A program made the translations under genes and the position numbers. Positions 10,763 through 49,256 of a stretch of 49,947 nucleotides of DNA are shown in pieces. The notes beneath the pieces were generated by a model that was given only the letters and a program-made list of their open reading frames with translations, searched no databases and was not told where the DNA came from. Where the stretch lies: NCBI GenBank assembly GCA_947624285.1, contig CANQJS010000010.1:1-49947 (forward strand), read 5' to 3'. The stretch comes from an uncultured Clostridia bacterium. Lineage in GTDB: Bacteria; Bacillota; Clostridia; Oscillospirales; Acutalibacteraceae. Each line of letters opens with the position of its first letter. Positions within the stretch are counted from its first letter, which is position 1.

Positions 10763-10847
10763 GCGAGAGTGGCGGAATCGGCAGACGCGCACGTTTGAGG
10801 GGCGTGTGGGGCGACTCGTACGGGTTCAAGTCCCGTCTCTCGCACCA
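10763..10847 (+). tRNA. tRNA-Leu (anticodon GAG)
   Basis: The 85-nt sequence folds as a class II tRNA: acceptor GCGAGAG pairs with CTCTCGC before an encoded ACCA end, the anticodon stem is CACGT/GCGTG around loop TTGAGGG, which gives anticodon GAG, and the T arm contains GGTTCAAGTCC. The variable arm is of the long Leu type. The hairpin at 10856-10879 just downstream lacks a U tract, so it is a processing or weak termination site at best. Confidence 0.93.
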
Positions 10848-11374: not shown

Positions 11375-11389
11375 GTGCACTCGGTGCAC
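11375..11389. repeat. left copy of a 15-bp inverted repeat flanking the DUF5710 gene
   Basis: GTGCAC-TCG-GTGCAC. Its exact reverse complement stands at 12173-12187. Similarity continues outward (AATAAA and A-rich bases on the same side), and each copy is also a hairpin. Confidence 0.75.
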
Positions 11390-11432: not shown

Positions 11433-12233
11433 ATGGATTTATTATTGGATGTGCCTTTTTCACAAAAAGATGAGGCTAAAAAGAACGGAGCTTGGTGGAA
11501 GCCTGAAATTAAAAAGTGGTATGTGCGTGAAGATCCGCAGCAAGCCTATTATCTGAATTGGAAAAAGTATTTTAATAAATGGCTGCCGGAACATAATTTA
11601 CTTTGCAGAAATATATATATTTTTCAAATGCAGCGTAAATGCTGGAAGTGCGGTAAAGATACTCCGGTAGTTTGTTTGGCAACTAATGATTCATATACCT
11701 TATTTGATGACGAAGTGAGTTATAAAAGATACCAAAATTTGCAGTTACTTTCTTATGTATCTAAAATACCCGATGAATTGGCTGCGTATCTAAAGGAAAA
11801 CTACAAGTATTACCCCTCATTTTCTAACTTTGTTAAAAAAACCTACTTTATCAATCACTGTATTCATTGTGCAAGTGTTCAAGGCGATAATTATTTGCAC
11901 GAGCTACCGAAAGAAGCCTTTTATAAGCACCTCTGCTATAAAAGTTCTGAAAAGTCAAATTATTATAAAGTAAAAAATACATATTTAGTTCCGATTTTAT
12001 CAAATTTGCCATATTATGATTTAGTAGCTAATTCTTCAGAATTGATGCTTATACATATGCAAAACGGAATTGAAAACAGAGCCAGCCTTAATATAACTCA
12101 AAAACTTATTGATAAGCTCATTGATGATTCAAATTATATTGGCGAAATAGAAATCAACAACATTAAAAAAAAGTGCACCGAGTGCACTTTTTTATTTATG
12201 CAGAAATTATATTCCACTTTGCAAGCAGGGTAG
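11433..12233 (+). CDS. DUF5710-domain protein with Cys-pair motifs
   Basis: A 266-aa protein of unknown function. Residues 1-45 (LLLDVPFSQKDEAKKNGAWW...KKWYV) match the DUF5710 pattern, a small domain found in accessory and conjugative-element proteins next to nucleic-acid enzymes. Two CxxC pairs, CWKCGK and CIHCAS, suggest a zinc site. The rest is rich in Tyr, Lys and Asn and more AT-rich than neighbouring genes, which fits horizontal acquisition. The ATG at 11433 has AAAGGAG at good spacing. The reading frame runs through the hairpin repeat at 12173-12187, so its last ~20 residues may be an accidental extension; it overlaps the convergent HTH gene by 38 bases. Confidence 0.7.
   Translation: MDLLLDVPFSQKDEAKKNGAWWKPEIKKWYVREDPQQAYYLNWKKYFNKWLPEHNLLCRNIYIFQMQRKCWKCGKDTPVVCLATNDSYTLFDDEVSYKRYQNLQLLSYVSKIPDELAAYLKENYKYYPSFSNFVKKTYFINHCIHCASVQGDNYLHELPKEAFYKHLCYKSSEKSNYYKVKNTYLVPILSNLPYYDLVANSSELMLIHMQNGIENRASLNITQKLIDKLIDDSNYIGEIEINNIKKKCTECTFLFMQKLYSTLQAG
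12173..12187. repeat. right copy of the 15-bp inverted repeat (also a terminator-like hairpin)
   Basis: GTGCAC-CGA-GTGCAC, exact reverse complement of the copy at 11375-11389. Here it is flanked by A and T runs and can act as a bidirectional terminator for the convergent genes on either side. Confidence 0.75.
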
Positions 12234-38755: not shown

Positions 38756-39601
38756 ATGAAAAAAAATCAATATGTTACAAACGAACAAATAGTGGAATTT
38801 GAAAAATGGCTCATCAAAGAGGAGAGAGAACAGGGCACTATCCAGAAATATCTCCGCGATGTCAGATCTCTTTCCGCTTGGCTCGGCGGCAGTGAATTGA
38901 CAAATGAGGCGGTTGCCGATTGGAAAGAGCATTTGATAAAAGACGGTTACAAGCCCGTTACCGTTAACTCCATGCTCGCGTCCGTCAACAGCTATTGCCG
39001 TTTTGCCGGACTTAACATCAGGTTAAAATTCCTGAGGATACAGCGCAGAATGTTTCAGGAAGAGCAACGCAATTTGAAAAAGAACGAGTATGAGAGGTTG
39101 ATAGGCGCAGCCGAAAAAAAGGGAAATAAACGGCTCTCTCTGCTCATTGAGACGATAGGAGCAACGGGCATTCGTGTTTCCGAGGTAAAGTATGTAACGG
39201 TTGAAGCAGTAAGAAGCGGAAAGGCAGAAATATCGCTGAAAGGCAAGATTCGCACTATCCTGCTGCCGGGGAAGCTTTGCCGTAAACTTCTTAAATATGC
39301 GCAAAAACAAAAAATCGCTTCCGGTGAGATATTCATCACCAAAAGCGGTAAGGGAATGTCAAGAAAACAGATTTGGTCGGAAATGAAAGCGGTCTGTAAA
39401 GTAGCGGGCGTTGAAGCCTCTAAAGTATTTCCTCATAATCTTCGCCATCTTTTTGCAAGGGCGTATTATAAAGCAACGCGCGATGTCGCAGGGCTTGCCG
39501 CTCTGCTCGGTCACAGCTCAATAGAAACAACGCGCATATATCTGCTCTCTACGGGTAATGAGCTTGCAAGAAAGCTTGAAGCGCTACGGCTTGTTTTGTA
39601 G
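38756..39601 (+). CDS. tyrosine recombinase, probable DNA invertase
   Basis: A 281-aa site-specific recombinase of the phage integrase family. The N-terminal SAM-like core-binding domain (~residues 8-95) is followed by the catalytic domain with all the active-site residues: Arg140 (ATGIRVSEV), Lys164 region (LKGKIRTILL), His227 and Arg230 (FPHNLRHLFAR), His253 (LLGHSS) and the nucleophile Tyr262 (TTRIYLLS). There is no arm-binding domain, excisionase or other phage gene nearby. The stop codon touches the inverted repeat at 39602, so it most likely acts on the adjacent repeat pair. A different role such as a XerC-like housekeeping or element integrase is less likely. Confidence 0.9.
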   Translation: MKKNQYVTNEQIVEFEKWLIKEEREQGTIQKYLRDVRSLSAWLGGSELTNEAVADWKEHLIKDGYKPVTVNSMLASVNSYCRFAGLNIRLKFLRIQRRMFQEEQRNLKKNEYERLIGAAEKKGNKRLSLLIETIGATGIRVSEVKYVTVEAVRSGKAEISLKGKIRTILLPGKLCRKLLKYAQKQKIASGEIFITKSGKGMSRKQIWSEMKAVCKVAGVEASKVFPHNLRHLFARAYYKATRDVAGLAALLGHSSIETTRIYLLSTGNELARKLEALRLVL

Positions 39602-39619
39602 ACAAAATTTTCATTTTGT
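39602..39619. repeat. left inverted repeat of the invertible segment (IRL)
   Basis: ACAAAATTTTCATTTTGT, exact reverse complement of 39839-39856. The repeat itself has two inverted arms (TAGACAAAAT and ATTTTGTCTA, extending one to three bases outside the 18 bp) around a 4-bp centre TTTC, the layout of a tyrosine recombinase core site. Confidence 0.85.
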
Positions 39620-39653
39620 CTATTGCCAAATATAAAAGACTGAATGTTTTGTA

Positions 39654-39682
39654 ATAATAACATATATCTCGACCAAAAACAA
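39654..39682 (-). promoter_or_regulatory. candidate leftward promoter inside the invertible segment
   Basis: On the minus strand TTGTTT (39677-39682) and TATTAT (39654-39659) are 17 bp apart. In this orientation it reads toward the recombinase as an antisense transcript; after inversion it would read into the polysaccharide genes. Confidence 0.45.
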
Positions 39683-39772
39683 GCTTTTTCTTAAATTTGA
39701 CTTTTACATATACGCATAAAGTTTCTAAAGGGTGATTTTTTACACAGTAGTATTTTTAATGCAATTAAAATC

Positions 39773-39801
39773 TTGAAATAAATTCAGCTTTCGTCAATAA
39801 T
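39773..39801 (+). promoter_or_regulatory. candidate rightward promoter inside the invertible segment
   Basis: TTGAAA (39773-39778) and AATAAT (39796-39801) are 17 bp apart, each one base off consensus. It points toward the polysaccharide locus in the present orientation. Confidence 0.4.
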
Positions 39802-39838
39802 TATATTGCTTTTTTGCTTCTAAACGGCGATATGAACA

Positions 39839-39856
39839 ACAAAATGAAAATTTTGT
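39839..39856. repeat. right inverted repeat of the invertible segment (IRR)
   Basis: ACAAAATGAAAATTTTGT, the exact inverse of IRL. Arms AACAAAAT and ATTTTGTT flank the 4-bp centre GAAA. The centre is asymmetric and inverted between the two sites, which would direct inversion, not deletion. Confidence 0.85.
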
Positions 39857-39928: not shown

Positions 39929-39958
39929 TTGACTGAAAACCCGAAATAATGGTATAAT
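39929..39958 (+). promoter_or_regulatory. fixed promoter outside the invertible segment
   Basis: TTGACT (39929-39934) and TATAAT (39953-39958) are 18 bp apart, 70 bases past IRR and 50 bases before the SDR gene. The SDR gene thus has a constitutive candidate promoter as well. Confidence 0.6.
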
Positions 39959-40010: not shown

Positions 40011-41060
40011 ATGAAGGTTTTTATGATAGGCGGAACGGGATTGTTAGGCTCTGCCGCCTCTGAAATTCTCATTGAAAGAGGCAATGAGGTAAGATCCGTT
40101 GCGTTGCCTCCGATTCCCGTAGGCGCGGATATTCCCGAGGAAATGGAGCTTATTTTGAGCGATGCCGATAAGCTGAGCGATGATGAAATCGTTTCGTTAA
40201 TGACGGGCTGCGATGTTTTTGTTTTTGCCGCCGGCGTTGACGAAAGGGTTGAATTTCCCGCGCCTGTTTATGAATATTACCGCAAGTACAATATCACGCC
40301 TCTTGAGCGTTATTTTACACTCGCCAAAAAGGCGGGTATCAAAGGCGCGGTAGTTTGCGGCTCTTATTTTTCTTGGCTCGCGAAACGGCGCCCCGAAATG
40401 AAGCTTTGCGAAAAGCACCCCTATATCAAAAGTAGAATCGAGCAGGAAAAGGTCTGTGAAAAATTTTCGGATAATGATTTCAGCGTATTCGTACTCGAGT
40501 TGCCTTATATTTTCGGAGTTCAGAAAGGAAGAAAACCTGTTTGGACTATTCTTATTGAGCAACTGAGCCGTTTTAAAAATATGCCTTTTACTTTGTATCC
40601 CGCAGGAGGCACGGCTATGCTTACCGTCCGTCAGGTGGGGGAAGCGCTTGCGGGAGCCTGTGAGCTTGTTCTTCGCAATGCCGAAAATGGTGCGGGCGGC
40701 TTTCGCGCCTTCGGCATATCCTGTTACAATATGACTTGGCGCGAATTACTGAAAATCGTTTACAAAGCTATGGACGGCGTTTCCGACAGGCGCATTATCG
40801 ATATACCTAAATGGGCTTTCAAGGCATTCGGCTTTTCGATGAGGGCGGATTATAAAAAAAGAAATACCGATCCCGGTATTGATCCCGTTGGGCTTGCCGA
40901 CATTATGGGGATGAATTTATTTATCCCCACTTGCGAATGTAAAGAGCTTGGATGTACCGCTGACGATATAGAAAAAGCGATATCCGATTCCGTTGAGCTT
41001 TCCGTTAAAGCATATAACGGAACAGCCGATCTTGTAGGTATGAAAGGCGAAGGCGCATAA
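40011..41060 (+). CDS. NAD-dependent epimerase/dehydratase-family protein
   Basis: A 349-aa extended short-chain dehydrogenase (SDR). The dinucleotide motif is GGTGLLGSAASEIL at residues 7-20; FVFAAGVDERVEFP and VVCGSYFSW are typical of the strand 4-5 regions. The expected YxxxK is only partly met (HPYIKSRIEQEK: Tyr followed by Arg at +4), so it may be a non-catalytic or atypical member. Substrate unknown; its place before the cps genes suggests a sugar-nucleotide role. The weak ribosome site and separate promoter suggest it is a unit of its own. Confidence 0.75.
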   Translation: MKVFMIGGTGLLGSAASEILIERGNEVRSVALPPIPVGADIPEEMELILSDADKLSDDEIVSLMTGCDVFVFAAGVDERVEFPAPVYEYYRKYNITPLERYFTLAKKAGIKGAVVCGSYFSWLAKRRPEMKLCEKHPYIKSRIEQEKVCEKFSDNDFSVFVLELPYIFGVQKGRKPVWTILIEQLSRFKNMPFTLYPAGGTAMLTVRQVGEALAGACELVLRNAENGAGGFRAFGISCYNMTWRELLKIVYKAMDGVSDRRIIDIPKWAFKAFGFSMRADYKKRNTDPGIDPVGLADIMGMNLFIPTCECKELGCTADDIEKAISDSVELSVKAYNGTADLVGMKGEGA

Positions 41061-41162: not shown

Positions 41163-41191
41163 TTGAATTTATTTCCAATCTATTGTATAAT
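41163..41191 (+). promoter_or_regulatory. promoter of the cps operon
   Basis: TTGAAT (41163-41168) and TATAAT (41186-41191) are 17 bp apart. Because it overlaps an in-frame upstream start, it supports the TTG at 41235 as the real start of cpsB. Confidence 0.75.
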
Positions 41192-41234
41192 CTTAACACT
41201 TTGTATGCTTATATGGAACAGGCGGTGTAGAAAT

Positions 41235-41987
41235 TTGTCAAAAATCGGTGAAAAATTCGGCAGGATCGTAGATATGCATTGCCATATTCTACCGGGTCTT
41301 GACGACGGGGCGGACAGCCCCTCCGTTTCTCTGGCTATGATGAGAACGGCCGTGCAAAGCGGAATAACCGATATTGTAGTTACACCGCATTTTAATTTGC
41401 GTAAAAGCGCTTCGCCTCAAACCGTTTTAAGAGTATTGCACTCAGCTCAGGAGGCCGCGGACAGATACGGAATACCTCTTAGATTTTATCCTGGCAACGA
41501 AGTTTATTATTTCGATGAGCTTCCCGAATATTTGAGGGAAAAGCGCGTATTAACAATGAACGGCTCTGATTATGTGCTTATTGAATTTTCGCCCATATCT
41601 CCGTTTCATGTTATTGAAAATGCGATGGACAGCGTTATGTTTGCGGGCTATCGGCCGGTTATAGCCCACATCGAGCGCTATGAGTCGATCCTCGACGACT
41701 ATGAAAAAGTTTACCGGCTTGCTGATATGGATGTTCGTATTCAGGTCAACGCCTCAAGCGTTACGGGAAGCAACGGAAAGAATGTAAAAAAATTCGTTCA
41801 CAGGCTTCTTAAAGAGGAGTTGGTCGATCTCATCGGAACGGACGCGCACAGCAATAGGCACCGCACTCCCGAAATATCCGATTGCAGGGATATTTTGGTT
41901 AAAAAATACGGCATAGATTATGCAAAACATCTTTTGAGAAAGAATGCTGCTGAAATGTTCGGCTTACAGCTTACGGAGGGTAAATAA
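41235..41987 (+). CDS. cpsB: CpsB/YwqE-type tyrosine phosphatase (PHP domain)
   Basis: A 250-aa PHP-fold metallophosphatase that dephosphorylates the CpsD kinase. Metal-site motifs are DMHCHILPGLDDGADS, VVTPHFNLR, GNEVYYFDEL, IAHIERYE and IGTDAHSNRHR. The TTG start with GGCGGTG upstream gives the usual length (~250 aa); an ORF running further upstream would begin inside the promoter. It overlaps cpsC by one base. Confidence 0.9.
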   Translation: MSKIGEKFGRIVDMHCHILPGLDDGADSPSVSLAMMRTAVQSGITDIVVTPHFNLRKSASPQTVLRVLHSAQEAADRYGIPLRFYPGNEVYYFDELPEYLREKRVLTMNGSDYVLIEFSPISPFHVIENAMDSVMFAGYRPVIAHIERYESILDDYEKVYRLADMDVRIQVNASSVTGSNGKNVKKFVHRLLKEELVDLIGTDAHSNRHRTPEISDCRDILVKKYGIDYAKHLLRKNAAEMFGLQLTEGK

Positions 41988-42772
41988 TGAATGAAAAAAA
42001 TGAAACTATCGAAATAGATGTTTTTTCGATGTTGCTTTACTTTATCAAGCGTTGGTACTATTTCGTTTTTTCCGTTTTGATAACTACGGTCATAGGGCTT
42101 GCGATATGTATTTTTGTAATTACGCCGCAGTTTCGTTCCACAACAAAAATTCTTGTTTTGAACAGGCAAAACAATAATCAACTTTCTTACAGTGACTTTC
42201 AGATTTCAAATCAGCTTACCAAGGACTATGAGGAGCTGATAAAGAGCAGAGATGTTCTTGAATCGGTTATTCAGAAATGTAATCTCAATGATAAATACGA
42301 AGATCTTTTAGGGCGTATAACCGTCAGTAATACTGCGGACACTCATTTGATTTCAATTTCGGTTGAGGACCCGTCGCCCCAAATGGCACAGCAGATCGCC
42401 GATACTCTTAGAGACACGGCAACTGCTCATATAACAAATGTTACCGAGGTAGAGGCGGTTAATGTGGCTGAAAAGGCCAATCTTCCCACAGAGGAAGCCT
42501 CTCCTTCAAAGTTCGTTTGGGCAGTTCTTTCCGCGGGCATAGGCGGTTTGGCGATGCTTATATTCTTAACAATACGCTACCTTACCGATGATTCGATCAA
42601 ATCGGAAGCGGATGTTGAGCAGTATCTCGGACTTCCGACTCTTGCGCTTATTCCTAAAATGGAAACCGCTATCAAGAGCGGCGGTAAATCAAAATCATCT
42701 TCCACGAGGCGTGGCTCACCGCAGCGCACCGCTTCCGGCAGACCATCAAATTCGGTACAAAGGAGGAAGTAA
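41987..42772 (+). CDS. cpsC: capsule chain-length regulator CpsC (Wzz-type)
   Basis: A 261-aa polysaccharide co-polymerase and CpsD activator. Two membrane helices (about 26-50 and 176-198) enclose an extracellular coiled domain; the Wzz pattern is seen in YFIKRWYYFVFSVLITTVIG and the second helix is preceded by the Pro-containing ANLPTEEASPSKF. The cytoplasmic tail of ~60 residues is rich in Ser, Lys, Arg and Pro. It starts in the cpsB stop (TAATG) and its stop is 2 bases before cpsD. Confidence 0.9.
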   Translation: MNEKNETIEIDVFSMLLYFIKRWYYFVFSVLITTVIGLAICIFVITPQFRSTTKILVLNRQNNNQLSYSDFQISNQLTKDYEELIKSRDVLESVIQKCNLNDKYEDLLGRITVSNTADTHLISISVEDPSPQMAQQIADTLRDTATAHITNVTEVEAVNVAEKANLPTEEASPSKFVWAVLSAGIGGLAMLIFLTIRYLTDDSIKSEADVEQYLGLPTLALIPKMETAIKSGGKSKSSSTRRGSPQRTASGRPSNSVQRRK

Positions 42773-42774
42773 GA

Positions 42775-43536
42775 ATGTCTGTTGCAAACGAATTTCAGAA
42801 TAACAATAATCCTGCAAATTCCGGTGTTATCGACGCTCCGCAGGATGCTCACACCGTTTATCTGCGCAAAGAGGGAGCGCGTAATTTCCAGCTTCAGGAA
42901 GCATTTAAAACCCTTCGTTCAAACACAGAGTTTTCCGGCGAGAATCTTCAGGTAATATGCGTTACAAGCGCGCTTCCCGGCGACGGTAAATCCACGGTTA
43001 GCTACAATCTTGCCTGTGCGTTTGCCGAGAGCGGAAAGACCACCTTACTTATAGACGCCGATTTAAGAAAATCGGTTATGAGAAAGTATTGCAGGGGCGG
43101 TAACCCGTCAAGCGGTCTTACTCATTATCTTATCGGCAAAAAAACTTACGCCGAATCCGTGAATTACTCGGATATAACGAATTTAAGCGTTATCTTTGCC
43201 GGTCATGTTCCCCCCAATCCCACCGAGCTTTTGGGCAGCAAAAAATTCACTTCTCTTGTTGAAAAAGCCAGAGAGGATTTTCAGGTAGTTATAATCGATA
43301 CTCCGCCTATCGGCAGCGTTATTGATTCCGCTATCGTAGCTAAGGTGTGCGACGGAATTATCCTTGTTCTTAAGGACGGCGCTATCAGCTACCGTATCGC
43401 TCAAAGATGCAAGGAGCAGCTCGATCATTCGGGAACTAAGCTTTTAGGCTGTGTTCTCAACAGCGTAGACCTTTCGTCCAACAGATATTACGGAAAATAT
43501 TACGGTAAGTATTACGGATCATATTATGGAAAATAA
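42775..43536 (+). CDS. cpsD: autophosphorylating tyrosine kinase CpsD
   Basis: A 253-aa bacterial tyrosine (BY) kinase. The P-loop is SALPGDGKSTVSYNLA (Walker A), with Walker A' TTLLIDADLR and Walker B VVIIDTPPIGS. The C-terminus is a Tyr-rich cluster (YYGKYYGKYYGSYYGK), the multi-site autophosphorylation tail. Together with CpsC it controls polymerisation; CpsB reverses it. It overlaps the next gene by 11 bases. Confidence 0.94.
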   Translation: MSVANEFQNNNNPANSGVIDAPQDAHTVYLRKEGARNFQLQEAFKTLRSNTEFSGENLQVICVTSALPGDGKSTVSYNLACAFAESGKTTLLIDADLRKSVMRKYCRGGNPSSGLTHYLIGKKTYAESVNYSDITNLSVIFAGHVPPNPTELLGSKKFTSLVEKAREDFQVVIIDTPPIGSVIDSAIVAKVCDGIILVLKDGAISYRIAQRCKEQLDHSGTKLLGCVLNSVDLSSNRYYGKYYGKYYGSYYGK

Positions 43537-44182
43537 AAATATAAATTCTGCCGGCAATTCTTTAACCCCGAACAACAGCTTATTTTATAGATTTGTTAAA
43601 AGGGCATTTGATATTGTTGTAAGTCTTTTGGGAATAATTGTATTGTCTCCCTTGATTTTGATCGTTTCTTTGATTATTTATATCGACGATCCAGGCCCTG
43701 TCTTTTTTATTCAGGACAGAAACGGGATCAACGGTAAAGTTTTCAAAATGTGGAAGTTTCGCAGCATGACAAAGAACGCTCAAAATTTGAGGTTTGAGAT
43801 GGAGGATCAGAACGAACTTGACGGTCCGGCATTTAAAATTAAGGATGATCCCCGAATAACAAAAGTCGGTAAATTCATCAGAAAGACAAGTATTGACGAG
43901 CTTCCTCAGCTTGTTAATATTTTAAAAGGTGAAATGTCTGTCGTAGGTCCAAGACCGCTTCCAACATACGAAACGGAGCAATTGAACGAGAAACAGCTTC
44001 AGCGCCTTTTAGTCAAACCGGGTTTGATTTGTTACTGGCAGGTTTGCGGCAGAAACAATGTTTCTTTCGATGAATGGATGGAAATGGATTATAAGTATAT
44101 TAAAGACGCAAGTGTTGCCACTGATCTTAAAATATTGTTCAAGGCGATTCCTGCGGTTTTAAGTGGTTTAGGCGCGGCTTGA
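43526..44182 (+). CDS. initiating sugar-1-phosphate transferase (polyisoprenyl-phosphate)
   Basis: A 218-aa WbaP/CpsE-type transferase that moves hexose-1-phosphate from a UDP-sugar to undecaprenyl phosphate, the first committed step of the repeat unit. One membrane helix (about residues 26-48) precedes the catalytic domain with DDPGPVFFIQDRNG, FKMWKFRSM, TSIDELPQLVNILKGEMSVVGPRP and YWQVCGRNNVSF. The N-terminal multi-helix part of WbaP is absent, as in PglC-like short forms. The sugar cannot be predicted. Confidence 0.92.
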   Translation: MENKNINSAGNSLTPNNSLFYRFVKRAFDIVVSLLGIIVLSPLILIVSLIIYIDDPGPVFFIQDRNGINGKVFKMWKFRSMTKNAQNLRFEMEDQNELDGPAFKIKDDPRITKVGKFIRKTSIDELPQLVNILKGEMSVVGPRPLPTYETEQLNEKQLQRLLVKPGLICYWQVCGRNNVSFDEWMEMDYKYIKDASVATDLKILFKAIPAVLSGLGAA

Positions 44183-44220
44183 TTTAATTGTTTTTATCAA
44201 GCAAAAAGAGGAAACGAATT

Positions 44221-45000
44221 ATGAAAGTTGTTATTTTGGCAGGCGGCTTCGGCACAAGAATTTCCGAAGAATCCGCTTTTAAACCGAAACCGATGATCGA
44301 AATCGGCGAAATGCCGATACTTTGGCATATAATGAAAGGCTACTCTGCATTCGGTATCAACGAGTTCATAATCTGCGCCGGTTACAAGCAGCATGTTATT
44401 AAGGAGTGGTTTGCGGATTATTTTCTTCACACCTCCGATATAACTTTTGATTTCACTCGCGGCAATGAAATTATCGTTCACGACAAGCACGCGGAGCTTT
44501 GGAAGGTAACCGTTGTTGATACCGGGCTCAACACCATGACCGGCGGCAGAATAAAGCGTGTGCGTAAATACATCGGAAACGAGCCTTTCTGCCTTACATA
44601 CGGCGATGCGGTTTGCGATGTGGATATTTCCGAATTAGTTAAATTCCATAAAAGTCACGGGAAGATCGCTACGCTTACGGCTGTAACTTTGGAGCAGCAA
44701 AAGGGCGTATTGGATATCGGCTCCGACAATGCCGTTAAATCTTTCAGAGAAAAGAATCTTTCTGACGGAGCGCTTATAAACGCGGGATATATGGTTTTAA
44801 ATCCCGAAATTTTCGACTTTATAGAGGGCGACAGTACCGTTTTTGAACGCGAGCCTTTAGAAAAACTTGCTTCCGCCGGTGAGCTTATGTCGTATAATCA
44901 CCGTGGATTTTGGCAGTGTATGGACACAAAACGCGAAAAGGACCGGCTTGAGGAACTTTGGGCTTCGGGGCGCGCTCCGTGGAAAATTTGGGAGGATTAA
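44221..45000 (+). CDS. rfbF: glucose-1-phosphate cytidylyltransferase
   Basis: Makes CDP-glucose from glucose-1-phosphate and CTP; 259 aa. The nucleotidyltransferase motif is AGGFGTRISEESAFKPKPMIEIG, with GINEFIICAGYKQHVIKEWF, TYGDAVCDVDI and NHRGFWQCMDTKREKDRLEELW also typical. The ATG at 44221 has GAGGAAACG upstream; an earlier in-frame start at 44188 has none. It begins the CDP-deoxyhexose part of the cluster and touches the next gene. Confidence 0.95.
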   Translation: MKVVILAGGFGTRISEESAFKPKPMIEIGEMPILWHIMKGYSAFGINEFIICAGYKQHVIKEWFADYFLHTSDITFDFTRGNEIIVHDKHAELWKVTVVDTGLNTMTGGRIKRVRKYIGNEPFCLTYGDAVCDVDISELVKFHKSHGKIATLTAVTLEQQKGVLDIGSDNAVKSFREKNLSDGALINAGYMVLNPEIFDFIEGDSTVFEREPLEKLASAGELMSYNHRGFWQCMDTKREKDRLEELWASGRAPWKIWED

Positions 45001-46053
45001 ATGGATTTATCTTTCTACAAAAATAAACGAGTGCTTGTAACGGGTCATACCGGTTTCAAAGGCACTTGGCTTTGCAAAATGCTTGTGAACGCCGGCGCGG
45101 CGGTTACGGGCTACAGCCTTGAGCCGCCGACAAATCCCAATTTGTTTGATATTTCCGGTCTTGACGGCGAAATGAAGAGCGTCATCGCCGATATTCGGGA
45201 TTTTGACAGATTGAAAGCCGTTTTTGCCGAGGCTCAGCCCGAGATAGTTTTGCACCTTGCCGCTCAGCCGATCGTTCGTGAGAGCTATAAAAATCCGCGC
45301 CTCACATACGAAACAAATGTTATGGGCACGGTCAACCTTATGGAATGCGTTCGGCTTAATCCGTGTGTAAAAAGCGTTTTAAATGTCACCACCGATAAGG
45401 TTTACAAAAATAACGAGTGGTGCTGGGGCTACCGTGAGGACGAGCCTCTTGACGGTTTTGACCCGTATTCAAATTCAAAATCGTGCTCCGAGCTTGTGAC
45501 GCACAGTTATATCAACAGCTTTTTCTCCGATAGCGATATAGCCGTTTCGACCGCAAGAGCGGGAAATGTTATAGGAGGCGGAGATTTCGCGAGCGACAGG
45601 ATAATTCCCGACTGCGTCCGCGCCGTGATGAAAGGCGAGAGGATAGGCGTTAGAAATCCTTATTCAATCCGTCCGTATCAACATGTTTTGGAGCCGTTGG
45701 CAGTCTATCTTATGATCGCCGCTAAGCAGTATGAGGACAAGCGTTTTGCCGGATTTTACAATGTAGGTCCTGATGAATATGACTGTGTAACTACCGGCGA
45801 GCTCGTTGATCTTTTCTGCAAGCATTGGGGCAAAGGAGCGCAATGGATAAATCAGTCCGAGAAAAACGCTGTTCACGAAGCTAACTTCTTAAAGCTCGAC
45901 TGCTCAAAGTTAAAAAGCACATTCGGCTGGAAACCTCATTGGAACATTGACGAATGTATGAAATATACGGCTCGATTTTATAAATCTTGGCTCGCGGGTG
46001 AAGATATCCCCGCTGAGATGAACAGAGAGATCAAAGTTTTTTTGGAGGATTAA
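45001..46053 (+). CDS. rfbG: CDP-glucose 4,6-dehydratase
   Basis: Converts CDP-glucose to CDP-4-keto-6-deoxyglucose; 350 aa extended SDR. It has VLVTGHTGFKGTWLCKML, the LHLAAQPIVRESYKNPRLTYETNVMGT block, a TTDKVY motif and the catalytic YSNSK. The start is the ATG right after the rfbF stop codon, so they are coupled. Confidence 0.96.
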   Translation: MDLSFYKNKRVLVTGHTGFKGTWLCKMLVNAGAAVTGYSLEPPTNPNLFDISGLDGEMKSVIADIRDFDRLKAVFAEAQPEIVLHLAAQPIVRESYKNPRLTYETNVMGTVNLMECVRLNPCVKSVLNVTTDKVYKNNEWCWGYREDEPLDGFDPYSNSKSCSELVTHSYINSFFSDSDIAVSTARAGNVIGGGDFASDRIIPDCVRAVMKGERIGVRNPYSIRPYQHVLEPLAVYLMIAAKQYEDKRFAGFYNVGPDEYDCVTTGELVDLFCKHWGKGAQWINQSEKNAVHEANFLKLDCSKLKSTFGWKPHWNIDECMKYTARFYKSWLAGEDIPAEMNREIKVFLED

Positions 46054-46058
46054 GATAA

Positions 46059-47402
46059 ATGGCAGAATGGAAGTCAGAGGCTGAAGCGAGGGAACGGATA
46101 AAGGCGCTTGTTGCCGAGTATTATCACGACTTCAAGGAAAATAAAAAGCCGTTTGAGCCGGGCGACAGGATAAGCTACGCCTCCCGTGTTTTTGACGAAA
46201 AGGAAATGCAGAGCCTCACTGACGCTATGCTCGATTTTTGGCTCACTACAGGCAGATTTTCCGATGAATTTGAAAAGAAATTCGCGGAATGGATAGGTGT
46301 TAAGTACGCCCACTTGGTAAACAGCGGCTCGTCCGCCAATCTCATAGCCTTTTCGGTTTTGACCGCTCCCGAGCTCGGCGAACGCCGGATAAAGCGAGGC
46401 GATGAGGTCATAACGGTCGCGTGCGGATTTCCGACTACCGTTACACCGATATTGCAGTATGGAGCTGTACCCGTTTTTGTTGATGTTACTGTTCCTCAGT
46501 ACAATATCGATGTCGCAATGCTTGAGGATGCGCTTTCCGATAAAACAAAGGCTGTTATGATAGCCCACACGCTCGGTAATCCGTTTGATTTAAAGGCTGT
46601 TAAGGCGTTTTGCGATAAGCACGATCTTTGGCTCGTTGAGGATAATTGCGACGCGCTCGGCTCGCAGTACACTATCGACGGCGAGACGAAACTCACCGGC
46701 ACTTGGGGCGATATCGGCACAAGCAGCTTCTATCCTCCTCACCATATGACGATGGGCGAGGGCGGATGCGTTTATACGAATAACCCGCTGCTCAATAGAC
46801 TTATACTGTCTTACCGTGATTGGGGGCGCGATTGCATCTGCCCCTCAGGGCGGGATAATTTCTGCGGTCACCGCTTTGACGGGCAGTTCGGCGAGCTTCC
46901 GAAAGGGTACGATCATAAGTATGTTTACAGCCACTTCGGTTACAACCTCAAGGTGACGGATATGCAGGCGGCGATAGGTGTTGAGCAGCTCAAAAAGTTT
47001 CCGAGTTTTGTTGAGCGACGCCGCCACAACTGGAACAGAATGAGAACGGCTTTAGAGTCGATTCAGGATAAAATCATACTTCCGACGCCTGCCGAAAACA
47101 GCCGCCCGTCTTGGTTTGGATTTATGATTTCCGTAAGACCCGAAAGCGGACTTGACAGGAACAAAGTTACGCGATTCATTGAAGAGCACAACATTCAAAC
47201 GCGCCTTTTGTTCAGCGGTAATCTCATTAAGCACCCGTGCTTTGATGGAATAAGAAATACCGATGCCTATCGTGTTGTCGGCTCTCTTGACTCAACGGAT
47301 TTCATTATGAATAACTCGTTTTGGATAGGTCTTTATCCCGGTATGACCGATGAAATGATCGACTATATCGCGGAAATTGTCAAGAAAGCGGTAAACTGTT
47401 AA
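46059..47402 (+). CDS. rfbH: CDP-4-keto-6-deoxyglucose 3-dehydrase (E1)
   Basis: An unusual PMP-dependent iron-sulfur enzyme that removes the C3 hydroxyl, leading to 3,6-dideoxyhexoses; 447 aa, aspartate aminotransferase fold. The usual Lys is replaced by His in FYPPHHMTMGEGG, as in the E1 family, and the [2Fe-2S] cysteines appear in RDCICPSGRDNFCGHRF. The reductase partner (E3, RfbI/DdhD) is not in the window. AAGATAA precedes the start, a poor site. Confidence 0.94.
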   Translation: MAEWKSEAEARERIKALVAEYYHDFKENKKPFEPGDRISYASRVFDEKEMQSLTDAMLDFWLTTGRFSDEFEKKFAEWIGVKYAHLVNSGSSANLIAFSVLTAPELGERRIKRGDEVITVACGFPTTVTPILQYGAVPVFVDVTVPQYNIDVAMLEDALSDKTKAVMIAHTLGNPFDLKAVKAFCDKHDLWLVEDNCDALGSQYTIDGETKLTGTWGDIGTSSFYPPHHMTMGEGGCVYTNNPLLNRLILSYRDWGRDCICPSGRDNFCGHRFDGQFGELPKGYDHKYVYSHFGYNLKVTDMQAAIGVEQLKKFPSFVERRRHNWNRMRTALESIQDKIILPTPAENSRPSWFGFMISVRPESGLDRNKVTRFIEEHNIQTRLLFSGNLIKHPCFDGIRNTDAYRVVGSLDSTDFIMNNSFWIGLYPGMTDEMIDYIAEIVKKAVNC

Positions 47403-47417
47403 ATTTGAGGGAATTGT

Positions 47418-49256
47418 ATGAAAATTCGTTTGGCAGATTATGTTGCAGATTTTCTCGTAAGCCACGGCGTTACCGATGTGTTCAGCGTTGTAGGCGGAGG
47501 CGCTATGCACCTTAATGACGCTTTGGGGCATCATACAGGGTTAAATGTTATATATAATCACCATGAGCAAGCGTGCGCAATAGCCGCTGAGGCTTATGCT
47601 CGCCTTGAAAACAGAATTGCCGCCGTTTGCGTTACCACCGGACCGGGCGGAACAAACGCGCTTACAGGAGTTGTAGGCGGCTGGCTTGATTCGATTCCGA
47701 TGTTTGTTATCAGCGGTCAGGTGAGATATGATACCACGGCGCGTTACGCGCTTAAATATACTGAAAAACCGCTTCGTTCCATGGGCGATCAGGAGTATGA
47801 CATTGTTAAATCCGCCGCGCCTATGACGAAATACGCGGTGATGATAGAGGATCCGGCGGATATACGCTATTGCCTTGAAAAAGCATGGCATTTGGCAACT
47901 ACCGGTCGGCCGGGGCCTGTTTGGATCGATATTCCGGTCAATTATCAGGGCGGATATATTGAAACAGATGATCTTCGCGGCTATGACCCCGCGGAGGACG
48001 ACGCGGAGCTTCCGCCAAAAGTCAGCGAAGATACGATAAAGCTTATAATCGACAAGATAAAAAAAGCTAAACGACCCGTTTTTCACGCTGGGTATGGCAT
48101 ACGCTTGTCCGGTGGATATAACGCTTTTCGCTCTGTTATGGAAAAGCTCAACATTCCCATTGTAACATACTGGAATGCCGTTGACTTAATTGAGGACGAC
48201 CATCCTCTTTACTGCGGCAGAGCCGGAAATATGGGCGACCGCCCCGGAAACTGGGCAATACAGAACGCCGATTTGATTCTCGCCGTCGGCACAAGAATAT
48301 CAATACGGCAGGTTGGCTATAATTGGAAAACTTGGGCGCGTGCCGCCGAGGTCATAATGGTGGACATTGACCCCGCCGAGCTTAAAAAACCGACGCTTCA
48401 TGTTGAAATGCCGGTGTGGGCGGACGCGAAGGACTTTCTCGAATGCGCCGACGCGCTTTGCCCGAAGAATGAAAAAGTGTTTAACGGTCAGGATTGGCTG
48501 AAAATCTGCGAGGGCTGGAAAAGGAATTATCCCGTTGTTCAGCCAAGGCAGTGGGAAGAAAACGGCGAAACGGCAAATGTGTACGCGTTTGTTGATTATC
48601 TCAGCTCAAGACTGTCCGAAAACAGTCTTACCGCCGTGTCAAACGGCGCATGCTGTGTCGTCGGAAATCAGACATATCACATTCAAAAGGGCAGCCGTAT
48701 GGCTAACAACAGCGCAATTGCGTCGATGGGATACGGACTTCCCGCGGCTATCGGAACTTGCATAGGCGGCGGCAGAAAAACGACTGTGTGCCTTGAGGGC
48801 GACGGCTCGATCATGATGAATCTTCAAGAGCTTCAGACTATTATTACAAATAAACTGCCGATAAAGATATTTCTGATAAACAACGGCGGTTATCATTCCA
48901 TAAGAATAACTCAAAATAATCTCTTCGGTGAGCATACTAAGGTGGGAATAGGTCCGGAATCGGGCGATCTTTCATTTCCCGAATTTAAGAAAATCGCCGA
49001 GGCGTTCGGTTACACCTACCTCTGCGCACATTCAAACGCCGAAATGAAAGAAGCGGTTGATAAGGCGCTTTCAACGGACGGCTGCGTGTTTACAGAAATT
49101 TTTACCGATACAAAGCAGGTTTGGGAGCCTAAGAGCAGCACAAAGCGTCTTGAGGACGGAACGCTTGTAAGCCCGCCGCTTGAGGATTTGGCGCCGTTTT
49201 TACCGAGGGAAGAGCTTAAAAAAATAATGGCTATACCATTGATTCCTGAAATATGA
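47418..49256 (+). CDS. ThDP-dependent enzyme, acetolactate synthase-like (YerE-type candidate)
   Basis: A 612-aa thiamine-diphosphate enzyme with three alpha/beta domains. The N-terminal Pyr domain has the catalytic Glu50 in NHHEQACAIAAEAYAR; the C-terminal PP domain has the ThDP motif EGDGSIMMN...LINN; FAD-type features are in the middle. The best-studied gene in this position, after rfbFGH, is YerE of Yersinia, which couples acetaldehyde from pyruvate to C4 of CDP-3,6-dideoxy-4-ketoglucose to give a branched sugar. That role fits the neighbours but is inference; a dedicated acetolactate synthase is the alternative. GAGGGAATTG precedes the ATG. Confidence 0.75.
   Translation: MKIRLADYVADFLVSHGVTDVFSVVGGGAMHLNDALGHHTGLNVIYNHHEQACAIAAEAYARLENRIAAVCVTTGPGGTNALTGVVGGWLDSIPMFVISGQVRYDTTARYALKYTEKPLRSMGDQEYDIVKSAAPMTKYAVMIEDPADIRYCLEKAWHLATTGRPGPVWIDIPVNYQGGYIETDDLRGYDPAEDDAELPPKVSEDTIKLIIDKIKKAKRPVFHAGYGIRLSGGYNAFRSVMEKLNIPIVTYWNAVDLIEDDHPLYCGRAGNMGDRPGNWAIQNADLILAVGTRISIRQVGYNWKTWARAAEVIMVDIDPAELKKPTLHVEMPVWADAKDFLECADALCPKNEKVFNGQDWLKICEGWKRNYPVVQPRQWEENGETANVYAFVDYLSSRLSENSLTAVSNGACCVVGNQTYHIQKGSRMANNSAIASMGYGLPAAIGTCIGGGRKTTVCLEGDGSIMMNLQELQTIITNKLPIKIFLINNGGYHSIRITQNNLFGEHTKVGIGPESGDLSFPEFKKIAEAFGYTYLCAHSNAEMKEAVDKALSTDGCVFTEIFTDTKQVWEPKSSTKRLEDGTLVSPPLEDLAPFLPREELKKIMAIPLIPEI

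Follow-up and report, generated by a model that had tools for sequence, protein, structure and literature searches.

The window analysed here (the whole stretch of 49,947 nucleotides) carries, directly after the gene for a tyrosine recombinase, a short AT-rich segment bounded by two inverted recombination sites. The best explanation, to which we assign a probability of roughly 0.88, is that the local recombinase inverts positions 39620–39838 and so turns a promoter towards or away from the SDR gene and the cps/CDP-sugar genes that follow. The initial annotation of this DNA had proposed such an arrangement, an invertible segment that has its own tyrosine recombinase and precedes a polysaccharide locus in a member of the Clostridia, and the proposal is supported by the design shared across a family of related loci and by inversions seen within that family. 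The features are collected in Table 1.

Table 1. Features of the predicted switch and its surroundings (positions in the window)
Feature	Position	Strand	Basis
Tyrosine recombinase, 281 aa, presumed invertase	38756..39601	+	Phage_integrase 1.1e-24, SAM-like N-domain 3.5e-7
Recombination site 1 (predicted), ACAAAAT-TTTC-ATTTTGT	39602..39619	.	Arm match and family consensus
Predicted invertible segment, 219 bp, 26% G+C, non-coding	39620..39838	.	Assembled with promoter toward recombinase
Extended -10 promoter-like TTGTTT-17-TATTAT, TG before -10	39654..39682	-	Score 15.9; 99% shuffle quantile 15.77
Recombination site 2 (predicted), ACAAAAT-GAAA-ATTTTGT	39839..39856	.	Arm match
Fixed promoter-like TTGACT-18-TATAAT, TG before -10	39929..39958	+	11 of 12; conserved in G021
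SDR/epimerase-like gene, first downstream	40011..41060	+	Gene/domain match
cps start: CpsB/CapC, Wzz, tyrosine autokinase, sugar transferase	41163..44182	+	Domain matches
CDP-sugar genes: glucose-1-phosphate cytidylyltransferase, CDP-glucose 4,6-dehydratase, RfbH-like aminotransferase, then TPP enzyme	44188..49256	+	Domain matches

The two 18-nt repeats (39602–39619 and 39839–39856) are inverted and 100% complementary, with 219 nt between them. Among perfect inverted repeats that are 16 or 18 bp long and spaced 50–1000, they are the sole pair in the 49,947 bases, and no such pair appeared in any of 20 dinucleotide shuffles of the window. The perfect repeats around non-coding DNA that were described in the initial annotation are thus confirmed, with exact coordinates, and the longest stop-free run within the segment is at most 45 codons. 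The proposed core-site design holds equally well: both sites read ACAAAAT-N4-ATTTTGT, and the 4-bp centres, TTTC and GAAA, are inverted relative to each other. The TAG stop of the recombinase gene sits inside the left dyad (TAGACAAAAT-TTTC-ATTTTGTCTA). In the source assembly, a single, incomplete one of 1.59 Mb (75% complete), the exact motif ACAWAAT-N4-ATTWTGT occurs at 4 places. Two are the window sites, and the other two lie between a radA-like and an Xer-type gene and before a VWA-like gene (names assigned by eye). At gathering thresholds no Rfam family was found at the switch, and the single hit is a tRNA at 10763. The window has just one further perfect pair of at least 14 bp at a spacing of 50–1000, a 15-bp repeat (GTGCACTCGGTGCAC) at 11375–11389 and 12173–12187, with 783 bp between its arms.

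The recombinase belongs to the tyrosine type (Pfam Phage_integrase) and is not a serine recombinase as in Mpi-type invertases. It had been said to have its full catalytic residues, and the alignment bears this out: R140, K164, H227, R230, H253 and Y262, which we take to be the catalytic positions, are invariant across 18 aligned members. At the level of the superfamily it matches the XerA_Arch model (4.1e-40) and PDB entry 4a8e (6.4e-19). The cut-offs of the Xer models are not reached, with 115.1 of 329.6 bits for XerD, 100.5 of 335.15 for XerC and 138 of 220 for XerA_Arch. An initial search of 60 related genomes was followed by a profile search across 394 genomes of the order (E up to 1e-50), which matched the subfamily in 115 of them; within the genus it is found in 3 of 80 genomes. 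Named isolates that share the design are Pusillibacter faecalis MM59, whose switch precedes a gene with an S-layer domain, Monoglobus pectinilyticus and Subdoligranulum variabile (two records), and all the named relatives are Clostridia. PsrA, at 36% identity, is the only match named as an invertase among the 15 of 538 plasmid records listed. No relative was confirmed among viral contigs, and an unverified faecal phage record gave one 45% match, without a site pair.

The site pair was then considered across a set of 126 loci, consisting of the window, 20 stretches, 5 named contigs and a further 100 stretches; these loci are related to each other, and the counts given below are therefore not counts of independent events. 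A pair was accepted where dyad-symmetric 18-mers lay within 800 bp 3' of the recombinase gene and 180–360 bp apart. On this definition an inverted pair of ACAWAAT-N4-ATTWTGT sites is present just 3' of the gene in 85 of the 126 loci (83 distinct), while the same search 1.8 kb further on found a pair in 0 of 93 control stretches. Looser definitions were rejected, as they gave pairs in 2 of 93 controls (four mismatches, dyad 5 of 7) and in 7 of 93 (dyad 4 of 7). The segments of the paired loci are 201–335 bp long (median 234). In the 41 pairless loci, the sequence past the gene is shorter than 400 bp in 26 and longer than 500 bp in 15, and two of these 15 hold sites that fall outside the definition (L032, with unequal centres, and L040, about 2.8 kb away). 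Several loci contain three sites, two of them in the same direction (L035:5041/5104/5353; L040:7616/7689/7996; L104, L171, L174 and L179), an arrangement that would allow deletion or alternative segment lengths.

In loci picked by their arms only and having two sites each, the 4-bp centres are reverse-complementary in 68 of 68. Between loci they vary freely: 50 different centres are found over the 83 loci, with a centre identity of 1.00 within loci and 0.25–0.34 between them. The crossover region of a tyrosine recombinase needs to match for stable exchange. A model in which the sites are operators does not predict such matching. We also considered whether switches in one genome avoid having the same centre; 15 of 17 same-genome pairs do differ, but the diversity of centres already predicts this, and the idea was dropped. 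Two genomes have several similar switches with the variant arms ACATTAT-N4-ATAATGT (G042, loci L041–L044; G130, loci L136, L139 and L146). Their centres are mostly identical (TGGT, with one TGAT), so that recombination between loci would be possible there.

Not all copies of the switch are intact. Seven relatives have recombinases 76–78% identical to that of the window, and the pair is kept in three and absent in four. The four (L230, L232, L233 and L234; recombinases 77–78% identical) are decayed copies, in which inspection by eye shows other sequence past site 1 (two cases), an apparent insertion element (one) and a damaged site (one). Since copies decay, membership of the family is no proof of activity.

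Signs of inversion come from an all-against-all comparison of the segments together with blastn of the loci. In four sets, homologous segments lie in opposite orientations, with the inversion ending at the sites. One involves a sister switch on contig 3 of the window's own genome (L032), which compared with the congener G021 (L033) has 188 bp inverted at 89% identity, starting at the site, between flanks that are colinear up to the sites and 95% and 84% identical. Two copies within one genome (L168 and L170) also differ by an inverted segment (81%), with both sides colinear. L127 is inverted relative to L131 and L141 (81%), and L037 relative to L098 (69%); in both of these sets only the flank on the recombinase side aligns, and the right flanks do not. 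The sites of the sister switch (contig 3:112766–112783 and 113028–113045 of the window's genome, G000) have mismatched centres, CTGC and CATT, and on sequence grounds this switch, inverted with respect to the congener, may have become locked by the mismatch.

The window's own segment was not found inverted among the close relatives searched. Its orthologue in G021 (L034) is oriented as in the window, with a local score of 54 forward against 20 in reverse, as are the alignable segments of the window's subgroup. The part of the counter-prediction in the initial annotation that concerns relatives, a fixed orientation in all of them and unconserved repeats, fails for the family, in which the repeat design is conserved and homologous segments occur in both orientations; the few alignable relatives of the window segment do share its orientation. 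On the 3' side of the recombinase gene, 23 of 117 contigs stop within the first 400 bp and 0–2 in every subsequent 400-bp bin, compared with 6 that stop within 400 bp on the 5' side. Contig breaks at this position are expected if assemblers meet both orientations. Six of the 23 come from one genome with several near-identical copies, and repeats may explain these; the remaining 17 fit a mixture of orientations, beside other possible causes.

Promoters inside the segments were sought with a home-made score, which favours a 17-bp spacing and a TG before the -10, and were compared with shuffled sequences. An outward-facing promoter-like sequence with an extended -10 exceeds the 95% shuffle quantile in 67 of the 83 segments. 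The best candidate has a 17-bp spacing in 73/83 and the TG in 72/83, both of them features that the score favours. In 67 of the 83 segments it faces the recombinase, and in 16 it faces the operon; if the 67 strong candidates are taken by themselves, 55 point to the recombinase and 12 to the downstream gene. The promoter-like sequence of the window segment likewise points to the recombinase, away from SDR and cps. The distance from the -10 to the site is similar for both promoter directions, which is what inversion of the whole segment as one unit would produce. For L168 and L170 the promoter was called in the same direction despite their inverted segments, with both scores below the threshold.

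Terminator-like hairpins are present in 58 of the 83 segments, against 6–13 in ten shuffles. Of 79 scored segments, 42 have the hairpin opposite to the promoter, 14 have it the same way and 23 have none. In the window segment no terminator-like hairpin passed the filter. The distances from promoter to site peak near 26, 37, 47 and perhaps 57 bp. The main class, 45–50 bp, was chosen after seeing the data and holds 34 of 66 distances; the other 32 lean to the same phase as the main class (V-test p = 5e-5), and after thinning at 65% recombinase identity 13 distances are left, with p = 0.024. We regard helical phasing as a lead. A more general suggestion is that these switches are a portable cassette, consisting of a recombinase, sites with locus-specific matched centres and a promoter that is helically phased to the site and often backed by a terminator facing the opposite way, with bound recombinase and RNA polymerase keeping to a set face of the helix and with mutual effects of inversion and transcription; as a whole we think this rather doubtful.

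In the 82 loci where a downstream reading frame was found, the first gene is on the same strand in 74. In 37 of these 74, at most 50 bp separate site 2 from the start of the frame (taken as that of the longest frame), and in these loci it is probably the downstream gene that the segment serves. The first downstream genes encode SLH (8/74), SPFH/Band_7_1 (7/74), List-Bact repeat (7/74), BspA-type LRR (5/74), type IV pilin-like (3/74) and SipW-like (2/74) proteins, these being raw counts without a genome-wide background.

In the window the first downstream gene is the SDR, which has a fixed promoter-like sequence of its own. The SDR is present in 35 of 41 genus genomes. Among 30 fetched SDR loci (flanks up to 1.5 kb, some shorter), the recombinase and CpsB both stand beside it in two, the window and G021, and neither is present in the other 28. 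In 11 of these 28 an oadA-like gene (named by eye) is directly upstream of the SDR, with a gap of less than 200 bp, and in one more it is about 1 kb away. In congeners that have no switch the SDR is preceded by similar promoters of its own, as judged by eye. This comparison of gene order suggests that the cassette was inserted between the SDR and the oadA-like gene in the lineage that has cps there as well. The link between switch and cps is a co-occurrence in two related genomes only. A further promoter-like sequence, TTGAAT-17-TATAAT, precedes cpsB and is not clearly conserved in G021. Since both the SDR and cpsB have promoter-like sequences of their own, the switch may not be needed for their expression, and because of the fixed SDR promoter its effect here is likely to be a boost of transcription rather than a strict on/off control.

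On the basis of these observations, we hypothesise that the 281-residue recombinase would bind the two inverted sites that flank 39620–39838 and would exchange strands within the matched 4-bp centres, at about 39609–39612 and 39846–39849, so that the segment inverts. In the assembled orientation the single extended -10 promoter would point leftwards and read into the recombinase gene from its 3' end, which would be the off state for the genes on the right. In the inverted orientation it would read rightwards into the SDR and then into the cps/CDP-sugar operon, adding to the fixed SDR promoter; such read-through is suggested by the SDR–cpsB interval, in which no terminator was found. We infer that this recombinase acts on the window sites and that the window copy still flips. 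The outcome would be phase-variable expression of the SDR and of a surface polysaccharide, and the capsule with a CDP-dideoxy sugar, put forward in the initial annotation as what could be turned on and off, may be the switched output.

Other readings of the locus differ widely in their probability. A chance inverted repeat might be looked for in AT-rich DNA, and the segment has a G+C content of only 26%; such an origin is contradicted by the 0/20 shuffles, by the same design in 83 distinct loci and by the 68/68 matched centres, and its probability is negligible. It is also very improbable that the repeats are a transcription terminator or palindromes bound by a regulator. Each arm is itself palindromic, and a similar lone palindrome stands beside the Xer-type gene of the same genome, but an operator has no need for centres that agree inside each locus and differ without constraint from one locus to the next, nor for inversions that end at the repeats; on these two observations the operator reading was rejected. 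A switch that was once active and is now locked in this lineage is a better candidate, though still an unlikely one. The window and G021 share one orientation, decayed relatives exist, and the sister switch in the same genome has mismatched centres (CATT vs CTGC). Against this reading, the window sites match at 18/18 positions, and the recombinase has an intact frame that keeps the invariant residues.

The most serious competitor accepts the invertible promoter and questions its main output. The SDR and cps genes would run on fixed promoters, and the invertible promoter would, in one of its orientations, mainly produce RNA antisense to the recombinase gene and so tune the recombinase. The conserved SDR promoter, the promoter-like sequence ahead of cpsB and the prevailing direction of the best promoters towards the recombinase all speak for it. 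Against it, the short distance to the downstream frame in half of the 74 loci leaves little room for another promoter, and in 74 of 82 loci the first downstream gene is oriented away from the segment. We consider this possible but clearly less probable than control of the SDR and polysaccharide genes by the inverting segment.

Sites with the same arms also occur singly. In the window's genome a palindrome ACAAAAT-N4-ATTTTGT, whose symmetry continues over about 30 bp, is close to an Xer-type gene (contig 1:15678–15695; L186:1179), and the same lone palindrome is found near Xer-type genes in L020, L021, L022, L026, L028, L030 and L031. In L186 and L028 it lies between the Xer-type and radA-like genes; other Xer-type loci, such as L016, L019 and L024, are without it. 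Possibly this palindrome is the chromosomal dif site of the group. A different lone exact-arm site (contig 24:1635–1652; L196) overlaps a promoter-like TTGACA before the VWA-like gene, and its centre recurs at none of the three remaining exact sites in that genome.

The best-known examples of phase variation through promoter inversion are those of Bacteroides and C. difficile. A 2025 survey gives a median of 3 invertons per genome for Clostridia-like Firmicutes (PMC11892184). The family described here is large, and many of its switches adjoin surface genes. The combination of the recombinase subfamily with a pair of ACAWAAT-N4-ATTWTGT sites and a matched centre is a signature that allows such switches to be listed, and it can be used to guess the state of a switch from an assembly and to predict surface genes with heterogeneous expression. 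For the window, whether a CDP-dideoxy-sugar polysaccharide is expressed heterogeneously becomes a directly testable question.

Switches of this kind, invertons, are already known, and the window is a further member: it has flanking inverted repeats, an adjacent recombinase, matched centres and an internal promoter, the last as a consensus match only. The closest published set is inverton group 139, with 33 invertons, 32 of them from Clostridia, which is tied to a nearby tyrosine recombinase (invertase group 35), and whose flipping was measured from reads in Intestinimonas and Clostridium sp. D5 (PMC11892184). The coordinates printed there give segments of 227 bp in Intestinimonas butyriciproducens and 205 bp in Clostridium sp. 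D5, so that the window resembles this group in its Clostridia host, its nearby tyrosine recombinase and its segment size. The portions of that survey drawn on here contain no description of matched variable centres or of promoter-to-site spacing (PMC11892184). Group 139 is probably the family found here, in a comparison that covers host, type of recombinase and segment size. A literature search, with supplements and most subscription journals outside its scope, found no description of the ACAWAAT-N4-ATTWTGT site design.

The window recombinase shares its protein superfamily with XerC, XerD and XerA, and the arms of its sites equal the palindrome beside the Xer-type gene of the same genome; it differs from an Xer/dif system in having two inverted sites instead of one and in scoring below the cut-offs of the Xer models. 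PsrA is likewise a tyrosine-type DNA invertase, of Streptococcus hsdS loci, described as inverting coding segments of a methylase specificity gene and not a promoter. In Bacteroides, invertible promoters lie beside surface polysaccharide loci, and Mpi is a serine recombinase that acts on many sites, in contrast to the local, tyrosine-type enzyme of the window. In C. difficile, the recombinase RecV acts at several switches and is not known to be encoded next to cmr, whereas the window recombinase gene abuts its segment. The cmr switch itself has an invertible promoter P2 upstream of a fixed promoter P4, is in the OFF orientation in the reference genome and affects colony and surface phenotypes (PMC8844915). 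An invertible promoter followed by a fixed one is also the order of the window segment and the SDR promoter, and cmr is the better comparison for the window.
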